Positions 9,433 through 20,025 of a stretch of 64,000 bases of DNA are shown here, in pieces; the stretch's first letter is position 1; every line of letters starts with the position of its first letter. The translations under genes and the position numbers were made by a program. The notes beneath the pieces were generated by a model. It was not told the origin of the DNA. It did not search any database and saw only the letters and a list, made by a program, of their open reading frames with translations. The DNA lies in the NCBI GenBank assembly GCA_030148805.1, contig JASBSS010000013.1:124001-188000 (forward strand), in the 5' to 3' direction. Source of the DNA: Thiogranum sp. GTDB lineage: Bacteria; Pseudomonadota; Gammaproteobacteria; DSM-19610.

Positions 9433-10323
9433 TCAGCTGCCTACCACGCGCAAGGCGATATTTTCCGGTTTGACGTCTTCGCGCGGGTCGTCGGTGCCCG
9501 GCGCAGCGGCGTCGTCGGCCTCGCCGCTTTCCTCGGGACGCTTCTGGCGTTCGTAGAGAAACTTCAGCACGTTCGAGCGATAGTGGTTATAGCGCGCGTC
9601 ATCGGCCAGCGCCAGCCGCTCGCGTGGCCGTTCGAGCTGGATGTGCAGGACTTCGCCGATGGTCGCCGCCGGCCCGTTGGTCATCATCACGATGCGGTCG
9701 GAGAGCAATACCGCTTCGTCGACATCGTGGGTGATCATGATCACGGTGTTTCCCAGCGAGGCGTGGATTTCCATTAACGAATCCTGCAGGTGGGCGCGCG
9801 TCAGCGCGTCCAGGGCGCCGAAGGGTTCGTCCATCAGCAGCACTTCCGGTTGCATCGCCAGGGCACGGGCGATGCCGACGCGCTGTTTCATGCCGCCGGA
9901 GATTTCGTCCGGTCGCTTGTCGCGCGCATGGCTCATATGCACCAGCTCCAGATTGTGCTCGATCCAGTCGCGCATCTCGGCGCGCGATTTTTTCCCCTTG
10001 AAAACCTGTTTGACGCCGAGTTCGACATTTTCATAGGTGCTCAGCCAGGGGAGCAGCGAGTGGTTCTGAAAGACGACGGCGCGTTCCGGGCCCGGCTCGA
10101 CCACTTCACGGCCGTTGAGAATCACGCCGCCGGCGGTCGCTCGGTGCAGACCCGCCACGATATTCAGGACGGTGGATTTGCCACAGCCGGAGTGACCGAT
10201 CAGGGTGATGAACTCGCCCTTGTCGATCTTCAGGCTGACATCCTCCAAGGCACGAAACGGTCCCGTGTCGGTGGGGAAATCGATATTGACGTGGGTCAGT
10301 TCAAGATGACATTTGTCGTTCAT
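9433..10323 (-). CDS. nrtD: Nitrate ABC transporter ATP-binding protein (NrtD-like)
   Basis: This is the cytoplasmic ATPase of a nitrate/nitrite-type importer. It has Walker A (GHSGCGKST), the signature ISGGMKQRVGIARAL, Walker B (LLMDEPFGALDALTR) and the switch His (MITHDVDEA). The protein is a lone ATPase without the binding-protein-like C-terminal domain of NrtC, so it is NrtD-like. A 40-residue acidic tail follows the core. ATG 10323 is preferred (296 residues) because GAGAGG lies seven bases upstream; ATG 10329 is the alternative. It follows nrtB by 17 bases. Confidence 0.92.
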   Translation of the reverse strand: MNDKCHLELTHVNIDFPTDTGPFRALEDVSLKIDKGEFITLIGHSGCGKSTVLNIVAGLHRATAGGVILNGREVVEPGPERAVVFQNHSLLPWLSTYENVELGVKQVFKGKKSRAEMRDWIEHNLELVHMSHARDKRPDEISGGMKQRVGIARALAMQPEVLLMDEPFGALDALTRAHLQDSLMEIHASLGNTVIMITHDVDEAVLLSDRIVMMTNGPAATIGEVLHIQLERPRERLALADDARYNHYRSNVLKFLYERQKRPEESGEADDAAAPGTDDPREDVKPENIALRVVGS

Positions 10324-10340
10324 GCTCATACCTCTCAACT

Positions 10341-11366
10341 TCAGCGCGTGATCGCACTCTTGTCCCAGGAGAACTTGCGTTGCAGCAGCAACATGCCGCG
10401 ATCCAGCACGAAGCCGATAAAGCCGATGACCAGCACCGCCACCATGATGCGGGCCAGCGAGTTGGAGCTGCCGTTCTGGAATTCATCCCAGACGAATTTG
10501 CCCAGGCCCGGGTTCTGCGCCAGCATTTCCGCCGCGATCAGTACCATCCAGCCGATGCCCAGCGACAGCCGCAAACCGGTGAACATCATCGGTATCGCCG
10601 AGGGGAGTACGATTTTCATCGTCTTGGTCAGCCAGGGCAGGCGCAGCACGCGTGAAACATTGATGAGATCCTTGTCCACCGTCGAGACGCCCACGGCGGT
10701 GTTGATGATCGTCGGCCACAGGCAGCAAAGGGTCACCGTGATGGCCGAGTTGAGGAAGGATTTGGCGAACAGCGGATCCTTGCTCACGTACACCGCGCTG
10801 ACCACCATGGTGACGATCGGCAACCAGGCCAGCGGAGAGACCGGTTTGAACAACTGGATGATCGGATTGAACGCCGCGTAAAGGGTCTGGCTCATGCCGG
10901 TGACGATGCCGATGGGGATGGCGATCAGCGAGGCGATGAGAAAACCGGTGGCGACGGTGACCAGACTGGTAAGGATCTGATCGAAAAAGGTCGGCGCCCC
11001 GGTATAGGGGCGGATGCGCACTTCGGCGTTCGGGTTGGCGGCGAGCTTCTCGGCGTTGCGTTTCTCCTGCCGCTGGTAGAACGCCGCCTCCTTGGCGCGC
11101 GCGGCCTGGTGCTCGTCGACCAGCACCAGCGCCTGCTCCCATACCTTGGCCGGACCGGGCAGCTGGCCCAGGGATGTCTGCACTTTGGCGGCGAGCACGC
11201 TCCATAGCATGAGAAACAGCGCGACGGCGGCCAAGGGTACGCCGACCGCCTGCACGAGACGCCTGGCGCCGCCACTGCGCTGGTCGCTGGAAAGGAATGT
11301 CAGCAAACGATCCATGAACTTCAGATCGTAGGCCTGGTACTTGTTGAGCGTGGTTTCTGTCTGCAT
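10341..11366 (-). CDS. nrtB: Nitrate ABC transporter permease NrtB
   Basis: Inner-membrane permease of the nitrate importer, 341 residues. A cytoplasmic N-terminus (about 40 residues) leads to the first helix (about 46-65). A long polar loop (about 75-125, rich in Ala, Glu and Lys) precedes the five-helix BPD_transp_1 core with SPLAWLPIVTMVVSAVY and LPSAIPMMFTGLRLSLGIGWMVLIAAEM, the EAA-type coupling loop. The long loop after the first helix is longer than in short cyanobacterial NrtB proteins. It lies 27 bases after nrtA and before nrtD. Confidence 0.92.
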   Translation of the reverse strand: MQTETTLNKYQAYDLKFMDRLLTFLSSDQRSGGARRLVQAVGVPLAAVALFLMLWSVLAAKVQTSLGQLPGPAKVWEQALVLVDEHQAARAKEAAFYQRQEKRNAEKLAANPNAEVRIRPYTGAPTFFDQILTSLVTVATGFLIASLIAIPIGIVTGMSQTLYAAFNPIIQLFKPVSPLAWLPIVTMVVSAVYVSKDPLFAKSFLNSAITVTLCCLWPTIINTAVGVSTVDKDLINVSRVLRLPWLTKTMKIVLPSAIPMMFTGLRLSLGIGWMVLIAAEMLAQNPGLGKFVWDEFQNGSSNSLARIMVAVLVIGFIGFVLDRGMLLLQRKFSWDKSAITR

Positions 11367-11393: not shown

Positions 11394-12785
11394 TCAAGGG
11401 GTTTCCTTGCCCTTAAGCCCGATAGGGAACTTTTCCAGATAGGCATTGGGCTTGGTGCCGTCGAAGGTGATTCCATCAATGAACTCGGTCTGCGGTTCGC
11501 GGAATCCGTCCTCGGTGGCGAAATCAGGGAAATCCGCGGCGCTCATCTTGCCCTCGTCGATCAGCGCCTTGGCGGCCTTGGCGTAGATGTCGGGTCGATA
11601 GACGCTCTTGGCGGTATCGATATACCAGCTGTCAGGTTTGTACTCGGCGATCTGTCCCCAGCGACGCATTTGCGTCAGGTACCACACGGCGTCCGAATAA
11701 TAGGGGTAAGTGGCGAAATAACGGAAAAAGACATTGAAGTCGGGGACTTCGCGCTTGTCGCCTTTTTCGTATTCGAAGGTACCGGTCATCGAATTGGCGA
11801 TCACCTTGTAGTCGGCGCCGACGTAGTTCGGCTGCGACAGGTACTTCACCGCCTCCGGACGATTCTTATTGTTGTCGGCGTCGAGCCACTTGGCGGCGCG
11901 TAGCAGGGCCTTGACCACCCGCACGGTGGTGTTGGGATATTTCTCGGTAAAGGCTTCGGTCATGCCGAAGACCTTCTCCGGGTTGTCTTTCCAGATTTCG
12001 TAGTCGGTGATCACCGGTACGCCGATGCCCTTGAACACCGCCTGCTGATTCCAGGGCTCGCCCACGCAGTAACCGTAAATGGTGCCGGCTTCCAGCGTGG
12101 CCGGCATCTGCGGCGGCGGGGTGACCGACAGCTGTACGTCGGCTTTCAGCGTACCCGAGATGTCGCCTTTTTGCGGTGCATAGAACCCTGGATTGAGTCC
12201 GCCGGCGGCGAGCCAGTAACGCAATTCGTAATTGTGGGTCGAGACCGGAAAGACCATGCCCATCTTGAAGGGCTTGCCTTCGTCGCGGTACTTGGCGACC
12301 ACCGGTTTGAGATAGTCGGCCTTGATCGGATGCACCGGCCGGCCGTCCTTCTGCTTTGGAATATGGGGTTTCATCTGCTCCCAGACCTGGTTGGAAACGG
12401 TGATGCCGTTGCCGTTCAGGTCCATGGAAAACGGGGTGACGATGTGGGCCTTGGTGCCAAAGCCGATGGTCGCGGCCAGCGGTTGGCCGGCGAGCATGTG
12501 GGCGCCGTCCAGTTGGCCGTCGATGACGCCGTCGAGCAGCACCTTCCAGTTGGCCTGGGCTTCGAGGGTGACATACAGGCCTTCGTCCTCGAAGTAACCC
12601 TTCTCGTAGGCGATGGCCAGGGGCGCCATGTCGGTGAGTTTGATGAAGCCGAATTTCAGGTCTTCTTTCTCAGGGGGGCCGATGTCGGCGCGACTGCCGG
12701 TGGCGACGAACAGCCCGAGGCTGAGCGCGAGCAGGAGGCGTTTTAGGGAGGTGGGTTTCGCGGTGCGCGGATCTCTGTCTAGCAT
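11394..12785 (-). CDS. nrtA: Nitrate-binding protein NrtA, periplasmic
   Basis: Solute-binding protein of the nitrate/nitrite ABC importer, 463 residues. A Sec-type signal ([19 protein letters not shown], about 15-33) is followed by the mature start [30 protein letters not shown]. Segments [19 protein letters not shown] and [13 protein letters not shown] are typical of the NrtA/CmpA family. The clear signal peptide argues against it being the cytoplasmic sensor NasS. The gene has its own sigma54-type promoter and a structured leader with a predicted attenuator (see 12816-12990). Confidence 0.95.
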
Positions 12786-12815
12786 GTGGACTCCGATTTG
12801 TGCAGGCCTGAAACG

Positions 12816-12900
12816 AATAAAGGCGTCTTCGGCCGGGACCGGGCAGGTCCAGGCGCACAGACACCTTTGTCCATAAACAATCCGGCCGCCAGCGGCCAGA
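12816..12900 (-). promoter_or_regulatory. Predicted ANTAR-type attenuator in the nrtA leader
   Basis: Read on the minus strand, hairpin 1 (12900-12881) is TCTGGCC/GGCCGGA with the six-base loop GCTGGC. Hairpin 2 (12872-12859) is GGAC/GTCT with loop AAAGGT, which has A at loop position 1 and G at position 4 as in known ANTAR targets. The 3' part of hairpin 2 is also the 5' strand of a 9-bp terminator stem, AAGGTGTCT (12867-12859) with AGACGCCTT (12828-12820), followed by TATTCGTTT. An inner GGACC/GGTCC hairpin stabilises it. The two folds exclude each other. The T-run is weak, and loop 1 of hairpin 1 is G rather than A. Confidence 0.55.
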
Positions 12901-12974
12901 TGGGATTCAAATTGTGTGTAGTGCTCTCCAATCCCCGGCTGCGCCGTTACAACTGGAGACGTCTACGACCCTCC

Positions 12975-12990
12975 AGCAGAATACGTGCCA
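12975..12990 (-). promoter_or_regulatory. Sigma54-type promoter of nrtABD
   Basis: The minus strand reads TGGCACG, four bases, then CTGCT. GG and GC are exactly ten bases apart, as required for RpoN promoters; one base differs from TTGCT. The expected start near 12964 leaves a leader of about 180 bases. RpoN promoters need an activator such as NtrC, and a matching site lies at 13064-13080. Confidence 0.75.
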
Positions 12991-13063
12991 GCATTTAAGC
13001 TTTTGTAAATCAATCGGAATTATTTCAGAGACCGGCGGAGAGTGCTGTTCCTTGGGGCACGGT

Positions 13064-13080
13064 CGCACCGCCTTGGTGCG
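13064..13080. promoter_or_regulatory. NtrC-like binding site upstream of nrtA
   Basis: GCACC and GGTGC flank a five-base spacer (GCACC-N5-GGTGC, extended by one C/G pair). This fits the known NtrC consensus dyad. It lies about 75-90 bases upstream of the sigma54 element, a normal enhancer distance. Only one clear site was found. Confidence 0.55.
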
Positions 13081-13089
13081 CTTGAAGGC

Positions 13090-13126
13090 AAAAAAACTCC
13101 GGCCGCCATGGCTGGCGACCGGAGTC
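13090..13126 (-). terminator. Intrinsic terminator of the porin gene
   Basis: On the minus strand CTCCGGTCGCC pairs with GGCGGCCGGAG (one G-T pair, otherwise complete) around a short loop, followed by seven T residues. It lies about 30 bases after the porin stop codon. Confidence 0.88.
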
Positions 13127-13157: not shown

Positions 13158-14375
13158 CTAGAACGTCACCTCACCCCAGAGCCACAACTTGTCATTGTCG
13201 ACCGAAAAGCCGTCGGCGTCGTAGCTGGCGTATTTGATCCCGGCGGCGTAGTGCTTGGTGAATTTCTTCACTGCCAGCAGGTCGATTTCACTGCCGTAGT
13301 CGGCGCCGCCCTTGTCGGCGCTGAAGTCGTGGTACACGCCGAGCAGTTTTATGCCCATGAGTTTTCCCCCCACTGACACGTAGCGGTCCTGCAGTCCGTC
13401 GGCCGGTGTATTCAGAAACGCGTCCGCCCAGCCATTGAAGGCGTGCTTGGTGGCCAGCGGTGTCTCAAAGCCACTGAAACTGTCGGCGCCGAGCAATTCA
13501 TAGCCGAATTTGACGCTGACTCCCTTTGCCGCCGCTCCCAGGATGAAGTGGTAGTAGTCCGCATCGATTGCGTTGTTGCCATCGGCATAGTCGCTTTGCT
13601 TGGCATACTCGGCCCGGTACAGCAGCGTGACGCCGCTCACACTGTAATCGCCGTCGATATAGCCGCCCAGGGTTCGGTTCGAGTTGGCACGCAGGCCGCT
13701 GCTGGCATTGTATTCGAGCAAATAGCCGTAGAACGCCAGCGTGGCAAAATCCAGACCGCTGAAGGAGGCATGAATCAGGTGGTTGCTCATATCGGTGTCG
13801 CTGCCGAAGATATTGCGCACGTTGTCTATGTAGGCGTAGTCGAGCGTGAGATTCGGGAGGCTGGTGTTGCTGAACGCTACCGCGTCGTAAGTCTGCTCAT
13901 TCTGACGCCAGCCGACATTGCCGAGAAAGCGGGCGTTATCCCATATCATGCGCTGGCGACCGATCTTCAGGTTCGCCTCGGGTATCCCGGTGTAGCTGAT
14001 ATAGGCCTGATTGACTTCCGTATTATCCGGGTCGGCGATCACCGAATACTGGCTCTTCCCGTTGCCCCCGGGGCCGCTGTTGTAATCCTCGATCAGGGCG
14101 CTGGTGTTCTCCATTTCCAGGTACGCGCGCAGCCCGTGGTAATCGGCGCTGCCGTAGCCCAGACGGGTACGCAGCGTGAGTCCGTCAGCATCCTTTAGCG
14201 CATTGTCCTGATCGACTTGTTCGTAGCGCAAGCGCATGTTGAGCTGCACCTCCCCTGAGCCAAGGGCATCGGTGAAGGCGCCGGCTTGTGCGTGGGCACT
14301 GGAGGCCAGCAAGGCGCCCAGGGTGAAGGCCCGCAGGCGGTATGGCTGGTTGGGTTTGGTAATGATTTTGTTCAT
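13158..14375 (-). CDS. Outer-membrane porin, alginate-export-like beta-barrel
   Basis: A 405-residue protein with an N-terminal signal (about residues 14-32, ending AHAQA). The body is made of alternating hydrophobic and polar strands typical of outer-membrane beta-barrels (GEVQLNMRLRYEQVD; GLTLRTRLGYGSADYHGLRAYLEME; ANLKIGRQRMIWDNARFLGNVGW). It ends in phenylalanine (LWLWGEVTF), the usual C-terminal signature for BAM assembly. The GRQ...NARFLGNVGWRQNEQTYD segment resembles alginate-export/porin families. Its position between the redox genes and nrtABD suggests it admits nitrate or nitrite across the outer membrane, which is inference. Confidence 0.85.
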   Translation of the reverse strand: MNKIITKPNQPYRLRAFTLGALLASSAHAQAGAFTDALGSGEVQLNMRLRYEQVDQDNALKDADGLTLRTRLGYGSADYHGLRAYLEMENTSALIEDYNSGPGGNGKSQYSVIADPDNTEVNQAYISYTGIPEANLKIGRQRMIWDNARFLGNVGWRQNEQTYDAVAFSNTSLPNLTLDYAYIDNVRNIFGSDTDMSNHLIHASFSGLDFATLAFYGYLLEYNASSGLRANSNRTLGGYIDGDYSVSGVTLLYRAEYAKQSDYADGNNAIDADYYHFILGAAAKGVSVKFGYELLGADSFSGFETPLATKHAFNGWADAFLNTPADGLQDRYVSVGGKLMGIKLLGVYHDFSADKGGADYGSEIDLLAVKKFTKHYAAGIKYASYDADGFSVDNDKLWLWGEVTF

Positions 14376-14553: not shown

Positions 14554-14967
14554 TCAGGCGGCCTCAGCCGCCGCGGCTTTCATGGTGTCGGCAAGAAGTC
14601 CATAGACCTCGCTCCAGGCTTCGCGGGTGGCTTCGGTGAACGCATCCCCGAGGCCGGTCTTCAGCGTCCACAACAACGCCGCGCCGACGGTATCGTAGTG
14701 CTCGTCCTTGACGCCGTAGGCGACATGCCGCACGCCGAGTTCCTGGACCGCCGGAACGATGTCCGGCAGTCGATCGAGACCGTTGACGGCCACGCCGATC
14801 ATGCGCATGAGTTTTTGCCCCTGGACTTCCATGTCGCCGTTGAACAACGGGCGCAGCGATGGGTCGAGTTCGAACAGTCGGGTGTAGAACAGTTCGGCGG
14901 CCTGGGCGGAAATGGGGGCGACCTGGGCCCAGGAGTTCTTGATCAGTACGATTTGGTCAGGTGTCAT
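14554..14967 (-). CDS. Single-domain bacterial globin (Vitreoscilla-type)
   Basis: A 137-residue globin without a reductase domain. It has the helix start TPDQIVLIKNSWAQVAPI, the CD region FYTRLFELDPSLRPLFNGDM with the conserved Phe, and a candidate proximal His in the F helix (ELGVRHVAYGV). Relatives bind oxygen and can detoxify nitric oxide when given electrons by a reductase. ATG 14967 is used; the upstream in-frame frame overlaps the preceding cytochrome gene, whose stop is 10 bases away. Membership in this operon suggests protection from NO made during nitrate or nitrite metabolism. Confidence 0.9.
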   Translation of the reverse strand: MTPDQIVLIKNSWAQVAPISAQAAELFYTRLFELDPSLRPLFNGDMEVQGQKLMRMIGVAVNGLDRLPDIVPAVQELGVRHVAYGVKDEHYDTVGAALLWTLKTGLGDAFTEATREAWSEVYGLLADTMKAAAAEAA

Positions 14968-14977
14968 GACGGGCTCC

Positions 14978-15583
14978 TCAGCTGTCGAGCGGAATACGAA
15001 TGACCACACCGCCCATCACGTCGCCGAGCTTGAAATCCCGGCGCGGAGAGTCCTTGTGGCCGTTGTGGCAGGAGACGCAGACCGGCGCCACCGCCGTATC
15101 GGCGTAGACGGCGGTGAAATAGTTGACGCCGCCGAGCTTCTCTTCGCCGTAGTAGTTCTTGCCTTTGTTCTCGGCGACGAACTTCAAGCCGGCTTTTTCC
15201 ACGTCGGTCTTCGGCGCATTCTGCCGGTTCACCGGCCATAGCGACTGCAGTGAATAACTGAAATTCACCTCGGGCATGGACTCGGCACGTTGCGCGACCA
15301 GCTCCGAGCCGAAGCGGAACATCTGCGCCGGCAGAACCAGCGCCTTGTCATCCTCGAAGTGTTCGCTGGCGGTGATGACCTTGTCTTTTTTCACCAGGCG
15401 GTTGACGATCTTGCGGGTATAGATGGTGCGATCGGAATCCATCACCAGATGCAGCGCATCGGCCATGGCTTTTGGGGTGATGCTGGGCTGGTCCATGGCG
15501 CTGTCGGTGGCGATGACGCCGCTCAGTCCGGCCATGGACGCGAAGATGCCCAGCGCGATAAGACTTTTCTGCAAAGTGTGCAT
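14978..15583 (-). CDS. Periplasmic monoheme c-type cytochrome with DUF3365 (Tll0287-like) domain
   Basis: A 201-residue exported protein: a hydrophobic signal (about residues 6-25, LIALGIFASMAGLSGVIA), then a DUF3365-type domain ending with one heme-c site, CVSCH (in VCVSCHNGHKDSP). DUF3365 domains occur alone and as sensor modules, and Tll0287-like proteins bind heme. A frame open far upstream overlaps the multiheme gene, but ATG 15583 has a good site (AGGAGA, seven bases before). It could be a small electron shuttle or a heme-based redox/NO sensor; the sequence does not decide. Confidence 0.83.
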   Translation of the reverse strand: MHTLQKSLIALGIFASMAGLSGVIATDSAMDQPSITPKAMADALHLVMDSDRTIYTRKIVNRLVKKDKVITASEHFEDDKALVLPAQMFRFGSELVAQRAESMPEVNFSYSLQSLWPVNRQNAPKTDVEKAGLKFVAENKGKNYYGEEKLGGVNYFTAVYADTAVAPVCVSCHNGHKDSPRRDFKLGDVMGGVVIRIPLDS

Positions 15584-15636: not shown

Positions 15637-17046
15637 TTAGCGCGCGCTCGCCGCCTCCTGCGAGGCTCGTTTGAGGTCTGTCTCCGCCATCTCCATGCTC
15701 CTGACGTCCACGCGCGGTGTGCCGTCGAAGTTGCGCTCGATCAGGTCGCGGTCGGCCAGCGCGTTGAGGGAGAACCCCAGTCCGTGGCAGTGCAGGCAGA
15801 CCGGTCGGAGCATTTTCTCGTTCGGTGAAAGGGTGGCGTTCTGATTGTGCTCGACCATGATCCGGCTGCTCCATTCGTTGATGTCGTGCTCCACCCGCGG
15901 CATATGACAGCCGGCGCAGGACACGCCACTGCCGCTGGCGGCCTCGCCGGCCAGCTCCCGCCGCCACGCCCGGTAGTGCGCTGATTGCTTGTAGGCCAGG
16001 CTGTGACGATCGGTGTGGCAACCAAGGCAGGCCTCCACCGCGGCGTGGCGGACATCGAAGCGATGCGCCGTATGGCAGCTGGTGCAGGTCAGTTGCAGGT
16101 GGTCGGCGTTCTCGCGCATCGGCAGGCGTGCCTGCGCGGGTGTCATCGGCGTCAGTCCCGCCGCCAGGCGCATCCCATGTTTTCCTCGCTCGAAGCGCGT
16201 GAGCTCGAGCTGGTGGCAGCCGGCACAGGCCTGAACGCCGGGGTGGTCGTTCCAGGCGGACTTTTCACCCTGGTCGTCCGGGGCTGCGTGGCAGCCGCTG
16301 CAATTGACGCCCGAGCGGGCGTGCGCGGTTTGCGCCCAATCGGCGAGCGCACCGGCGTCCAGGGAAGGTTGCCGGTCGTTGTCGGCATCAGCGGCGCTCA
16401 ATTGCCGGCGTGGATGGTCGGACAAGGGATAGTCCGGCAATTCCTCGAGCATGCTGGCGAACTCCCGCGCCGGCAGCGTGCGGCGTTCGAGCAGATCGGG
16501 TTCATGCAGATGTTTGAGCAGGAAGTCGGTGTACAGGGCGCGATTGTTGTGAAAGTTGTGACAGCCGGCGTCCGCGCAGCTGGCGAAGTCCATGCCGCGA
16601 TGGCTTGGGCGATCCGTGCCGATATCCGCGTGACAGTGAACGCAGAAGTCGACCGGTTGGGTGAGGCCGTTGGCGCCGGTGATCTCGGGCTGGTGCTCGA
16701 CATGGCAGGTAGTGCATTCCAGCGCATTGATGCTCTCCAGTCGATCGGCATTGCGTGGGTCGCGGAACTTGCTGCGGGGGTGCGAATCGAAGGGTTTCCT
16801 GCGCTCCTCGCCGTGACAGTCGATACAGGCTTGCTGCAATACCGTTCGACCTGCGAGCGGGTCGCGGTGACAGCTCTCGCAGGCGATCCCGATCTGGTGG
16901 TGACCATCGCTCATGGGCCCTGGCATGAAGAATTGTTTGTTCTCGCCTTCTGTCATCAAGTACACCAATGCGCCGATCAGCGCGATGGAGGTCGTCGTCC
17001 ACAGCAGCCACAGTTTGCGTTGGCGGCGTCCCTTGTCGCTCGGCAT
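15637..17046 (-). CDS. Membrane-anchored undecaheme cytochrome c
   Basis: A 469-residue protein with an uncleaved-looking N-terminal helix (about 12-31) after a basic stretch, so it should face the periplasm. Eleven heme-c sites are visible: ten CXXCH starting at Cys 56, 74, 111, 135, 249, 274, 321, 340, 377 and 417, and one CX4CH at Cys 157 (CADAGCH). There is no CXXCK, the catalytic-heme motif of many NrfA and octaheme nitrite or tetrathionate reductases. The C-terminal half (CLGCHTDRHSLAYKQSAHY) loosely recalls octaheme/HAO-type cytochromes. It starts three bases after the fusion gene stop, implying a joint function. Catalytic activity is unknown. Confidence 0.88.
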   Translation of the reverse strand: MPSDKGRRQRKLWLLWTTTSIALIGALVYLMTEGENKQFFMPGPMSDGHHQIGIACESCHRDPLAGRTVLQQACIDCHGEERRKPFDSHPRSKFRDPRNADRLESINALECTTCHVEHQPEITGANGLTQPVDFCVHCHADIGTDRPSHRGMDFASCADAGCHNFHNNRALYTDFLLKHLHEPDLLERRTLPAREFASMLEELPDYPLSDHPRRQLSAADADNDRQPSLDAGALADWAQTAHARSGVNCSGCHAAPDDQGEKSAWNDHPGVQACAGCHQLELTRFERGKHGMRLAAGLTPMTPAQARLPMRENADHLQLTCTSCHTAHRFDVRHAAVEACLGCHTDRHSLAYKQSAHYRAWRRELAGEAASGSGVSCAGCHMPRVEHDINEWSSRIMVEHNQNATLSPNEKMLRPVCLHCHGLGFSLNALADRDLIERNFDGTPRVDVRSMEMAETDLKRASQEAASAR

Positions 17047-17049
17047 GTC

Positions 17050-19035
17050 TCAGAACCAATAGGTCTTGAGGACGTGAAAACCCAGTAACACCGGCAGTGG
17101 CCAGAGCAGCAGTAGGTGCAGCCACACGGACCAGCCGCGTAGCCGGCTGACGATCGTAGCGGGCAGTCGGTGTTGCATGCCGATGGCGCCGGCGGCCAGG
17201 GCGCCGCTGAGGAGCAGGGCGCTGAAGCAGAGCATCAGGTAGAAATTGAGATGATGACCCAGGCGCAGCCCCGTGTGGGCGATCAGAATCGCGACGGCCA
17301 GCGCGCCCAGTGCCACGTGCACCACCCGCCAGCCGCTGAATCGCCCCAAGCTTATGCGTTTGCCGCGTTTGCGCAGCGTCAGGGTCGCCGCCAGCGCCGC
17401 GAGCGCCAACAGGCTGAAGCCGCTGACCTGTTTCAACAGGCTCTCACGCCAAAGCAGATCCCAGCGCACCGGGGCCTGGACGCTGGCGGGATAGGGGATG
17501 GCCGGTGCCAGCAACACGGCGATAGCGCCGAGCAACGACACCAGCGCCGTCAGCATCAAAACGCGGCTGCCGCGCTCGGCGCTCGGGCGCGTGGCGCCGG
17601 CCAGTTGGGCCAACAGCGGGCGGCAACTGCCGCAGACGCCGCCGGCTCCCGTGGTGGCCGTCAATTGCTCGGCGCTCGCGCAACCGCCGCGCTGGGCCGC
17701 GCCCAGCGCGCCGCGGGTGACCCCGGTGCACTGACACACGACCGCTTTGTCCGGCCAGTCTGTCACCGCCACCGCGTCCTGTTGCGGCCATAACCGGCCC
17801 TGGCGCAGGAAGCGGCGGACCTGCCAGGGCCAGACGAGACGGGCGTGCAGGATGCTTTCCTGGATGCGCGCGCTCTCGTCCCAGTCGCCACAGGCAATGG
17901 CGCCGACCAGTCGCTGGCGGTGCAACAACAGTTTGCGATAACAACGGCTGTCGTAGCTGCGCCAGCTGGGCGTGGCGAGCTGACTCAGGGTCTCGCCTTC
18001 GCCGGTACGCCCGGCGCTGAATAGTTTGACCCCCATCACTTTCAGCCGGGTCGCGGCCTGGGAGCCGCGATAGGTGGATTTTCCGCCGCTGATGTGATGG
18101 GCGGCGACGGCCGCCTGTTCGAGACCCGGCGCGACCAGTCCGTAGATTTGATCGCGGTGTTCGGCGCATTCGCCGACGGCGTAGATGCGGCTATCGCTGG
18201 TCTGCATCTGGTCGTTGACGCGGATGCCGCGGCCGACGGCGATTCCGGCGGCGCGCGCCAGGGCGATGTTCGGGCGTATTCCGGTGGCGATCACCAGGGT
18301 GTCGCAGTCGAGGCGACGGCCCGACAACAGTTCGACGCCGTCGACGCGCTCATCGCCCAGGATGCGCTTGACCGAGTCCCCCAGCGAGATGCGCATACCC
18401 AGCGCCAGCAGCTGCTCGCGCAGCAGCTCCGCGGCTTCGTCGTCGAGCTGCCTGGCCATCAACCGGCTGGCGTGCTCGACCACGGTGACCTGGGTGTGAT
18501 GTTTCTGCAGCCCGCGCGCGGCTTCCAGCCCGAGCAGGCCGCCGCCGAGAACCAGGGCGTGGCGGCTGCGTACGCCCCGGGCGAGGAGTGTCTGCGCGTC
18601 CTCGAGGTTGCGGAAGGTGTAGACGCCGGGTTTCCCGGTGCCTTCGATATGGGGGATATGGGGATGCGAGCCCATGGCCAGAACCAGATGGCTGTAGGGC
18701 TGAAAGGCGCCCTGAGAGTCGAAGACCTGTTGTCGCTCGCGGTCGATGCGCAGGATTTTACAGTTGTGGCGCTGTTCCACGCGGTGCGGCTGCGGCAATC
18801 GCAACGGCGTTTGAATCTCACTGAAGCTGACTTCGCCGGTCAGCAAGCCGGCCAGGCGGACGCGGTTGTAGGGCTCCCAGGGTTCGTCGCCGAAAACGAC
18901 GATCGGCCGCTCGGGCGCGTGTTGCACCAGCCGCTCGACGCAGCGGCTTCCGCTCGGGCCGGTTCCGACCACCACGATGGGCGCTTGCTCAGCCCGCGGG
19001 GGACTGAAGCTGTTGTGTTCCAAGACGGCTGACAT
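17050..19035 (-). CDS. NirB-type FAD/[2Fe-2S] oxidoreductase fused to a membrane cytochrome b-like domain
   Basis: A 661-residue fusion. Residues 19-310 are an FAD/NAD(P) disulfide-type reductase with GTGPSG (24-29), the second nucleotide fold LVLGGGLLGLEAA (161-173) and an AVGECAE FAD segment. Residues 432-475 are a BFD-like [2Fe-2S] domain with Cys 434, 436, 468 and 471. Instead of the siroheme half of NirB, residues 489-657 form about five membrane helices. Two of them carry His pairs 14 residues apart (573/587 and 640/654), as in proteins that hold two b hemes across the membrane. ATG 19035 is chosen because the earlier ATG at 19065 directly follows a terminator T-run. Predicted to pass NAD(P)H electrons outward. 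Confidence 0.85.
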   Translation of the reverse strand: MSAVLEHNSFSPPRAEQAPIVVVGTGPSGSRCVERLVQHAPERPIVVFGDEPWEPYNRVRLAGLLTGEVSFSEIQTPLRLPQPHRVEQRHNCKILRIDRERQQVFDSQGAFQPYSHLVLAMGSHPHIPHIEGTGKPGVYTFRNLEDAQTLLARGVRSRHALVLGGGLLGLEAARGLQKHHTQVTVVEHASRLMARQLDDEAAELLREQLLALGMRISLGDSVKRILGDERVDGVELLSGRRLDCDTLVIATGIRPNIALARAAGIAVGRGIRVNDQMQTSDSRIYAVGECAEHRDQIYGLVAPGLEQAAVAAHHISGGKSTYRGSQAATRLKVMGVKLFSAGRTGEGETLSQLATPSWRSYDSRCYRKLLLHRQRLVGAIACGDWDESARIQESILHARLVWPWQVRRFLRQGRLWPQQDAVAVTDWPDKAVVCQCTGVTRGALGAAQRGGCASAEQLTATTGAGGVCGSCRPLLAQLAGATRPSAERGSRVLMLTALVSLLGAIAVLLAPAIPYPASVQAPVRWDLLWRESLLKQVSGFSLLALAALAATLTLRKRGKRISLGRFSGWRVVHVALGALAVAILIAHTGLRLGHHLNFYLMLCFSALLLSGALAAGAIGMQHRLPATIVSRLRGWSVWLHLLLLWPLPVLLGFHVLKTYWF

Positions 19036-19065
19036 AACCTTCCCGATCGAATTGTGATAGCGCAT

Positions 19066-19143
19066 AAAAAAGCGCCCAGCCCGCCGACCCATCGGTCGCG
19101 GAGTGGACGCCTTCGTCCCCGTCACCACCGTCTTTGGCGGTGA
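19066..19143 (-). promoter_or_regulatory. Predicted ANTAR-type attenuator between nasT and the redox operon
   Basis: Minus-strand reading: hairpin 1 (19143-19122) is TCACCGCC/GGTGGTGA, eight pairs, with the six-base loop AAAGAC (A1, G4). After three bases comes hairpin 2 (19118-19105), GGAC/GTCC around GAAGGC. Its 3' strand is shared with the terminator 5' arm GCGTCCA (19110-19104), which pairs with TGGGCGC (19078-19072) and is followed by six T residues (19071-19066). An inner CCGCGACC/GGTCGGCGG stem strengthens the terminator. Hairpin 2 and the terminator exclude each other. Loop 2 begins with G, not the consensus A. Confidence 0.68.
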
Positions 19144-19153
19144 GCGGTCTGTT

Positions 19154-19729
19154 TCAGTTCAGCAGATCGGCGACGGCGATGACGTTCTCCGCCACTTCGC
19201 CGATGCGCAGATTCTTGTCCATGGCCATCTTTCTCAGCGCGTGGTAGGCCCTGGGTTCATCGTAACCGCGCTGTTTCATCAAAATGCCCTTGGCACGCTC
19301 GACGGCCTTGCGTTCCAGGAGATTGGCGCGGGTGTCTTTCAGTTCGCGCCGCAATTGCTCATAGGCGGCGAACCTCGCGACAGCCACGTTCAGGATGCTG
19401 TCGATACGACCGGCCTCCAGCCCGTCGACGATATACGCACTGACCCCGGCGTGCACCGCACGCTGGATGATCTGCGGATCGCTTTCATCGGTGAACAGCA
19501 CCACCGGCAGCGCGATTTCCGCCAACAGCTCTTTGAGCTTCGCCAACAGACCCGCCGGCCGGCTGCAGTAGACCACCAGAATATCCGGTGTGTGGGTGCC
19601 GACCTGGGCTAGCAGGTTGGCGTCCTCGCTACATTCGGCCACTACCTCGTGACCCAAACCCGGTAGCGATTGTCGCAGCAACTCGCCGCCCGTCGGGTCG
19701 CCGTTGACCAACAATGCTTTCAACTGCAT
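19154..19729 (-). CDS. nasT: ANTAR-domain antitermination regulator, NasT-like
   Basis: A 191-residue protein with an N-terminal receiver-like domain (about 3-120) and a C-terminal ANTAR RNA-binding domain (about 130-190, with LLERKAVERAKGILMKQRGYDEPRAYHALRKMAMDKN). NasT-type proteins bind paired six-base-loop hairpins in leader RNA and stop termination when nitrate is present. The phosphoacceptor position appears to be Tyr 54 (PDILVVYCSRP) instead of Asp, so control by phosphorylation is unlikely. No nasS sensor gene is adjacent. A sigma54-type promoter lies 24 bases upstream of the expected start point, and a predicted target RNA follows directly. Confidence 0.88.
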   Translation of the reverse strand: MQLKALLVNGDPTGGELLRQSLPGLGHEVVAECSEDANLLAQVGTHTPDILVVYCSRPAGLLAKLKELLAEIALPVVLFTDESDPQIIQRAVHAGVSAYIVDGLEAGRIDSILNVAVARFAAYEQLRRELKDTRANLLERKAVERAKGILMKQRGYDEPRAYHALRKMAMDKNLRIGEVAENVIAVADLLN

Positions 19730-19763
19730 GGAGCATCCACGTGAAACGGTTGGGTTTCGCCAC

Positions 19764-19779
19764 AGCAAAGGCCGTGCCA
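19764..19779 (-). promoter_or_regulatory. Sigma54-type promoter of nasT and the redox operon
   Basis: The minus strand reads TGGCACGGCCTTTGCT, matching the RpoN consensus with GG and GC ten bases apart. The expected start near 19753 is 24 bases before the nasT ATG. No perfect NtrC dyad was found upstream; a half-matching GCACC...GGCAC lies near 19957-19971. Confidence 0.82.
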
Positions 19780-20025
19780 GCGGACGTAAACGACTGAAAC
19801 TGTGACACTGTGATGTAAGGCGGCGGATCGCGGGCCGGAAGTTTGCACAACAATGAGCCAGCGTGCCTCCGGGTTTCCCGGTTTCGGTGCGCATTCAAGC
19901 CTCCCGATGAGTTCGCACCACAAGCGTTCCTTGCCGCGCGGCCTTTTAGCGCGGGCGCACCGAGGCGGCACAGGCATTGCTTGCAGTGCGGCTTTCAGGG
20001 GAAATCAACATACAAGGACTCAGTC

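Follow-up and report, generated by a model that had tools for sequence, protein, structure and literature searches.

A NirB-derived membrane fusion protein and an eleven-heme cytochrome form a conserved gene module linked to nitrate assimilation in Thiogranum and other bacteria

A 64,000-nucleotide stretch of a Thiogranum sp. genome (GenBank assembly GCA_030148805.1, contig JASBSS010000013.1, positions 124,001 to 188,000; hereafter the window) contains three neighboring genes that encode the N-terminal half of NirB joined to a membrane domain, an anchored eleven-heme cytochrome c and a monoheme protein of the Tll0287 type. Our analysis favors, with a probability of about 0.6, a three-protein module of the inner membrane that carries electrons outward from NADH in the cytosol, is induced by nitrate and works beside NasA and NirBD. 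The genes of the module are as follows:

17050..19035, minus strand: fusion of a NirB-type FAD/NADH domain, Rubredoxin_C, a BFD [2Fe-2S] domain and a domain of five transmembrane helices (Pfam, TIGR02374, alignments)
17053..17598, minus strand: membrane domain of the fusion, residues 480-661, five predicted helices (transmembrane prediction, alignments)
15637..17046, minus strand: inner-membrane-anchored eleven-heme cytochrome c, ten CXXCH motifs and one CX4CH (motifs, alignment, transmembrane prediction)
14978..15583, minus strand: Tll0287-type (sCache_heme) monoheme c protein with a signal-peptide-like N-terminus (PF11845, 65.8 bits, cut-off 24.1; PMC12889525)

The association of these genes is not a peculiarity of one genome. 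The cytochrome occurs in 27 (∼7%) of 369 evenly sampled Gammaproteobacteria and is missing from the other 342; in 25 of the 27 carriers it adjoins the membrane domain of the fusion. Of the other two, one (L132) lies on a contig that stops partway through the cytochrome, and the other (L131:9962-11281) is an orphan relative of the eleven-heme cytochrome, with neither a fusion nor a Tll0287-type gene. When genome contigs were searched, full-length relatives turned up in Chromatiaceae, Ectothiorhodospiraceae and other Gammaproteobacteria, in Burkholderiales and in Rhodobacteraceae. Cultured members of the last family that carry the module include Thalassococcus halodurans, Tritonibacter litoralis and Epibacterium ulvae. 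Across about 45 loci the three genes almost always stand side by side, which excludes chance as the cause of the arrangement; globin, small cytochrome c, porin and nrtABC genes are frequent companions. Distance matrices of the fusion membrane domain, the cytochrome and the Tll0287-type protein correlate with one another (r = 0.75-0.82, P = 0.001, 41 loci), and globin distances follow them less closely (r = 0.59-0.60). Within the genus of the window the module is patchy, being present in 4 of 17 genomes. One genome holds two copies (L125 and L126): the L126 cytochrome carries a stop, and at L125 only the membrane domain of a fusion that looks disrupted is visible. These may be decaying copies or assembly errors.

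The fusion gene starts with an ATG at 19035 and specifies 661 residues. Three Pfam domains account for the cytosolic half: Pyr_redox_2 (20-311), Rubredoxin_C (328-395) and Fer2_BFD (432-477). The NirB profile TIGR02374 scores 394 bits (curated cut-off 578) and only its N-terminal positions, 1-468 of 794, are covered; the siroheme/4Fe-4S half is therefore absent, and the scan with Pfam and TIGR02374 found no NIR_SIR domains in the fusion. Cysteines 434, 436, 468 and 471 of the BFD domain are present, and are invariant across the first 18 homologues. Position 187, at the end of the NAD-binding strand, is acidic (E or D) in 15 of the 17 sequences that have the residue, which points to NADH as the preferred donor. 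A variant fusion (L155:19-1695) has an extra FNR-type FAD/NAD reductase domain between the BFD and membrane domains; behind it come the usual cytochrome and Tll0287-type genes.

Of particular interest is the membrane domain. His573 and His587 sit in predicted helix 3, and His640 and His654 in helix 5, each pair spaced 14 residues apart as in cytochromes b of the ferric-reductase type; all four are invariant in 43 of 43 aligned relatives, as they are among the first 18 homologues. An RKR-rich loop between helices 2 and 3 marks the cytosolic side by the positive-inside rule, a topology in which the first histidine of each pair (573, 640) would lie toward the cytosol and the second (587, 654) toward the periplasm. 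Such placement is the geometry of NADPH-oxidase, ferric-reductase and similar cytochromes b, and from it we infer two b hemes. Membership in PF01794 (FRD) or DUF4405 was considered and rejected, the evidence consisting of sub-threshold hints and a weak profile comparison: the window fusion does not match PF01794, the best homologue reaches 20.6 bits against a cut-off of 28, and comparison of the two profiles gives a probability of 8.6%. A profile search of the PDB returned no match to the domain. The b-type domain is nevertheless homologous (hhalign 98%) to membrane proteins carrying the same four histidines. At each of the four loci examined (L156 to L159) these adjoin a ten-heme cytochrome; a 4Fe-4S protein with a cNMP-binding domain adjoins in three, and a YpdA-like FAD domain is joined to it in L157 and L158. 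This recurrence in unrelated operons gives independent support to a general plan of cytosolic redox protein, cytochrome b and multiheme cytochrome c, and the four operons apparently belong to a wider class of transmembrane electron conduits. In the operons at L157:5083-10422 and L158:4805-10004 the ten-heme cytochrome has an FHA-like domain.

The cytochrome gene begins at 17046, three bases after the stop codon of the fusion (17050-17052), and its product has a single N-terminal transmembrane segment (12-30). All eleven heme motifs are invariant in 42 relatives. The unusual one, C157-x4-C162-H163, is very probably a true heme site since it is invariant and its counterpart in the distant relative L131 is an ordinary CXXCH. 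The first-pass annotation of this DNA had described these elements – the FAD/NAD(P) and BFD half of NirB without its siroheme part, a membrane domain with histidine pairs 573/587 and 640/654, and, three bases on, an anchored eleven-heme cytochrome – and each of them holds. Its suggestion that the cytochrome might directly reduce nitrite, hydroxylamine or nitric oxide (NO) fares less well. Beyond the eleven proximal histidines exactly eleven others are fully invariant (42-43 aligned sequences; a twelfth, His179, occurs in 90%). No aligned sequence contains CXXCK, and PF02335 (NrfA) does not match. Eleven further candidate ligands for eleven hemes, and no CXXCK, leave direct reduction unsupported; they suggest bis-histidine coordination throughout, that is, a wire and not an enzyme. 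The DmsE profile TIGR03508 gives a partial match of 43.7 bits (curated cut-off 192), and among PLSDB plasmids there is no homologue that spans most of the query. In the Tll0287-type protein CXXCH is invariant in 42 aligned sequences and its two cysteines are the only conserved ones; the Cys/His axial ligation of Tll0287 would thus not apply.

Upstream of the fusion lies a leader of the ANTAR type (19067-19143), preceded by the gene of a NasT-type regulator:

19154..19894, minus strand: NasT-type regulator, a response-regulator-like receiver plus ANTAR RNA-binding domain (PF03861, 68.4 bits, cut-off 27.3); listed open reading frame, the true start may be further in
19122..19143, minus strand: ANTAR-target hairpin P1, UCACCGCC-AAAGAC-GGUGGUGA, a hexaloop with A1 and G4 (loop rule as in PMC3369931)
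19105..19118, minus strand: likely second hairpin P2, GGAC-GAAGGC-GUCC, overlapping the terminator stem (from sequence)
19067..19114, minus strand: terminator-like hairpin ending in a T run, alternative to P2 (from folding)

Known ANTAR targets consist of a hexaloop hairpin followed by a terminator-like hairpin (PMC3369931). The region 19040-19150 folds with -52.5 kcal/mol (z = -3.74). The P2 loop of the window begins with G rather than A; related leaders have similar hairpins of the form GGAC-AACGGC-GUCC, and several contain two good hexaloops. A hairpin with an AAxG hexaloop is found in 23 of 38 related leaders, where dinucleotide shuffling predicts 0.85, and homologues of the regulator adjoin the module in many loci. 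Given this recurrence, nitrate-responsive antitermination of the module by the NasT-type regulator is likely. The Rfam scan of the window returned tRNAs only.

Further features lie downstream of the module:

14554..14967, minus strand: single-domain globin with a flavohaemoglobin-type heme pocket, Y28, Q49 and H81 conserved (PF00042)
13158..14375, minus strand: outer-membrane porin of the Alginate_exp/Opr type, probably for small anions (PF13372; NF033923 below its cut-off)
13095..13126, minus strand: strong terminator-like hairpin 3′ of the porin gene
11394..12785, minus strand: NrtA-type binding protein of a nitrate/nitrite ABC transporter, with signal peptide (PF13379, 331 bits)
10341..11366, minus strand: NrtB-type permease (TIGR01183, 164.6 bits, cut-off 209)
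9433..10338, minus strand: NrtC/NrtD-type ATPase (TIGR01184, 344.6 bits, above cut-off)

Ahead of nrtA, in the region 12780-13126 (minus strand), a further ANTAR-like loop, GGAC-AAAGGT-GTCT, was spotted by eye. Together with the terminator of the porin gene it suggests that nrtABC are transcribed as a separate unit that answers to the same control. A small cytochrome c (PF13442/PF00034), found between the Tll0287-type and globin genes in many loci, is absent from the operon of the window.

The nasT gene, the ANTAR-type leader, nrtABC and an association with NasA link the module to nitrogen use, as the first-pass annotation had proposed. NasA is found in 18 of 27 module genomes compared with 100 of 342 others (Fisher P = 1.5e-4, a value that is indicative, related genomes not being independent). 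At one locus (L118) the module lies within a complete cluster of nasT, globin, nrtABC, NirB, NirD and NasA. There is no association with Nap (5 of 27 versus 64 of 342, P = 1), and none of the 27 module genomes has NrfA. One locus, L148 (3049-8414), has a nap cluster downstream of the module, nrtABC and a conserved protein of ∼312 residues without a Pfam match; its NapA scores above both curated cut-offs and its NapC-type cytochrome just below its own, in a genome with no NasA match. What did not survive is the implied role as a stand-in for the missing siroheme half. NirB complete with that half occurs in 22 of the 27 module genomes, and in the genome of the window NirB, NirD and NasA are intact on another contig; the module is therefore no substitute for nitrite reductase. 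The survey of homologues thus cuts both ways: a complete reductase is usually encoded in the same genome, and the module is clearly linked to nitrogen genes. These genes elsewhere in the genome, the leader RNA and the near-obligate third gene of the Tll0287 type are additions to the earlier account. On the sequence evidence the module probably belongs to the nitrate-assimilation regulon as an accessory.

The sequence comparisons support the earlier proposal that a cytosolic unit with NADH, FAD and [2Fe-2S] sites is connected to a membrane domain of the two-b-heme type and to a periplasmic multiheme cytochrome, and we propose the following sequence of events. Nitrate would be sensed and, by NasT-type antitermination, the module would be made along with nitrate/nitrite uptake and the globin. 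Electrons would pass from NADH to FAD and the BFD [2Fe-2S] center of the NirB-derived half, then to two stacked b hemes, one held by His573 and His640 on the cytosolic side and the other by His587 and His654 on the periplasmic side. From there they would reach the anchored eleven-heme cytochrome, then the Tll0287-type c-heme protein and finally, in the many species that have one, a small class I cytochrome c. The module would operate beside the normal NasA/NirBD pathway and not replace it. As to purpose, our best guess, offered with low confidence, is that the module handles reactive nitrogen by-products (nitrite, NO) by redox reactions in the periplasm, in parallel to the cytosolic globin. 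An NADH-driven line in which the eleven-heme cytochrome and the c-heme Cache protein reduce or detoxify periplasmic nitrite or NO, as an undescribed arm of nitrogen assimilation, is a tentative proposal, with the balance tilted somewhat against it. Several results weigh against an outward-flowing accessory of nitrate assimilation. At the threshold used, NasA goes unmatched in nine of the 27 module genomes; three, one of them 72% complete, match neither NasA nor NirB. No conserved periplasmic catalytic enzyme was found beside the module. No Pfam family scores above its cut-off for the b-type domain. The structure prediction for which the first-pass annotation had called yielded AlphaFold models of low to moderate confidence (predicted local distance difference test, pLDDT, of 59.6 for the cytochrome and 74.8 for the b-type domain), and fold searches with either model returned no usable relative.

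Other readings draw on the same evidence. The lack of a neighboring catalytic protein and of NrfA in all 27 genomes would be explained if the cytochrome or the Tll0287-type protein were itself the periplasmic terminal reductase of nitrite, hydroxylamine or NO; the cytochrome profile also matches short stretches of NrfA, the eight-heme nitrite reductase and NrfB (E 4e-9 to 5e-4), including a CHMP-type motif. The missing CXXCK, and the match of eleven proximal by eleven further invariant histidines, suggest however that no heme is open, and NO binding by the stand-alone Tll0287-type protein of P. putida is weak (PMC12889525); we consider this reading unlikely. About as unlikely is a non-pumping NADH:cytochrome c bypass, in which the Tll0287-type protein and the small class I cytochrome would feed the cytochrome c pool, oxidases or denitrification enzymes and so balance redox during growth on nitrate. 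The position of the small cytochrome gene in many loci and the want of a dedicated terminal enzyme suit it, but the window's operon lacks that cytochrome and the sequence offers no reason for a tie to nitrate uptake.

The globin invites a somewhat less probable reading: that the FAD/[2Fe-2S] half mainly reduces the co-encoded globin for NO dioxygenation, the membrane and periplasmic parts being a second outlet. The Bjgb/Flp pair of a NasT-controlled nitrate operon in Bradyrhizobium is a precedent (PMC4724949), and in 24 aligned sequences the globin beside the module has the conserved Tyr, Gln and His. Against this, globin is missing from a large share of loci in which the fusion, cytochrome and Tll0287-type gene remain together, and it tracks the module less well by distance, as given above. 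Many carriers are metagenome-assembled genomes of Chromatiaceae or Ectothiorhodospiraceae, for which NADH is costly, and low-potential electrons from the periplasm (e.g., from sulfur oxidation) could flow inward to FAD/[2Fe-2S], aiding nitrate/nitrite assimilation in autotrophs. Such flow would run against the membrane potential, and marine Rhodobacteraceae carry the module too; we judge it improbable. Replacement of siroheme NirBD in genomes that lack it could call on the retained N-terminal half of NirB and on four adequately complete module genomes with no NirB match at E<=1e-150, but the co-occurrence with full NirB reported above rules it out, save for a very slight residual chance. Outward flow through an accessory of the NasA/NirBD pathway remains our preferred reading.

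The usual picture of nitrate assimilation places it in the cytosol, with NADH or ferredoxin supplying the electrons. If a conserved, nitrate-switched module passes electrons from NADH to hemes in the periplasm, nitrate use would include an unrecognised periplasmic redox task, one that would reach about 7% of the sampled Gammaproteobacteria (27/369) and marine Rhodobacteraceae. No description of the module was found in the open-access PMC literature, although this is no proof that none exists. As kinds of protein, NAD(P)H flavocytochromes b and multiheme cytochromes are familiar; what appears new, within that literature, is their combination here and the nitrate-linked control.

The closest functional parallel is the NasT-controlled narK-bjgb-flp-nasC operon of Bradyrhizobium japonicum, whose globin and NAD(P)H flavoprotein guard against NO arising from nitrate assimilation; Flp is proposed to serve cytoplasmic NasC and Bjgb (PMC4724949). 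The window likewise pairs a single-domain globin with an NAD(P)H flavoprotein, and its sequence predicts that NasT controls both. Unlike Flp, its flavoprotein has a membrane domain and is followed by the periplasmic cytochrome and the Tll0287-type protein, with NasA elsewhere in the genome. Compared with NirB (TIGR02374) the fusion shares the FAD/NAD domain, Rubredoxin_C and BFD [2Fe-2S], but five membrane helices replace the siroheme/4Fe-4S half. In likely function it resembles the ferric reductase/NADPH oxidase flavocytochromes (PF01794 FRD, including MsrQ), with a cytosolic NAD(P)H flavin domain and a two-b-heme pattern, though the Pfam match is absent; those enzymes hold two bis-His b hemes by histidines 14 residues apart on helices 3 and 5. 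The cytochrome has local likeness in heme packing to DmsE/MtrA, NrfA, NrfB and TvNiR, and differs in its eleven hemes and N-terminal anchor. With Tll0287 and stand-alone sCache_heme proteins the third protein shares PF11845, CXXCH and a stand-alone form; unlike Tll0287 it lacks the third conserved cysteine and is encoded beside an electron-transfer chain. For stand-alone Tll0287-type proteins redox-like rather than sensor roles have been proposed, with weak NO binding (PMC12889525, a 2026 preprint).

The operons of L156 to L159, for which the open-access PMC literature yielded no description and whose vicinity matched none of the nitrogen genes of the window, place a homologous b-type domain beside a ten-heme cytochrome, usually with a cytosolic redox protein. 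They differ in having separate genes and, instead of the NirB half, YpdA-like FAD, cNMP-binding and 4Fe-4S domains (or cNMP-binding and 4Fe-4S). A reusable block of flavin/Fe-S protein, cytochrome b and multiheme cytochrome c thus appears to recur in unrelated operons, and a single profile of the b-type domain could find others of the kind.

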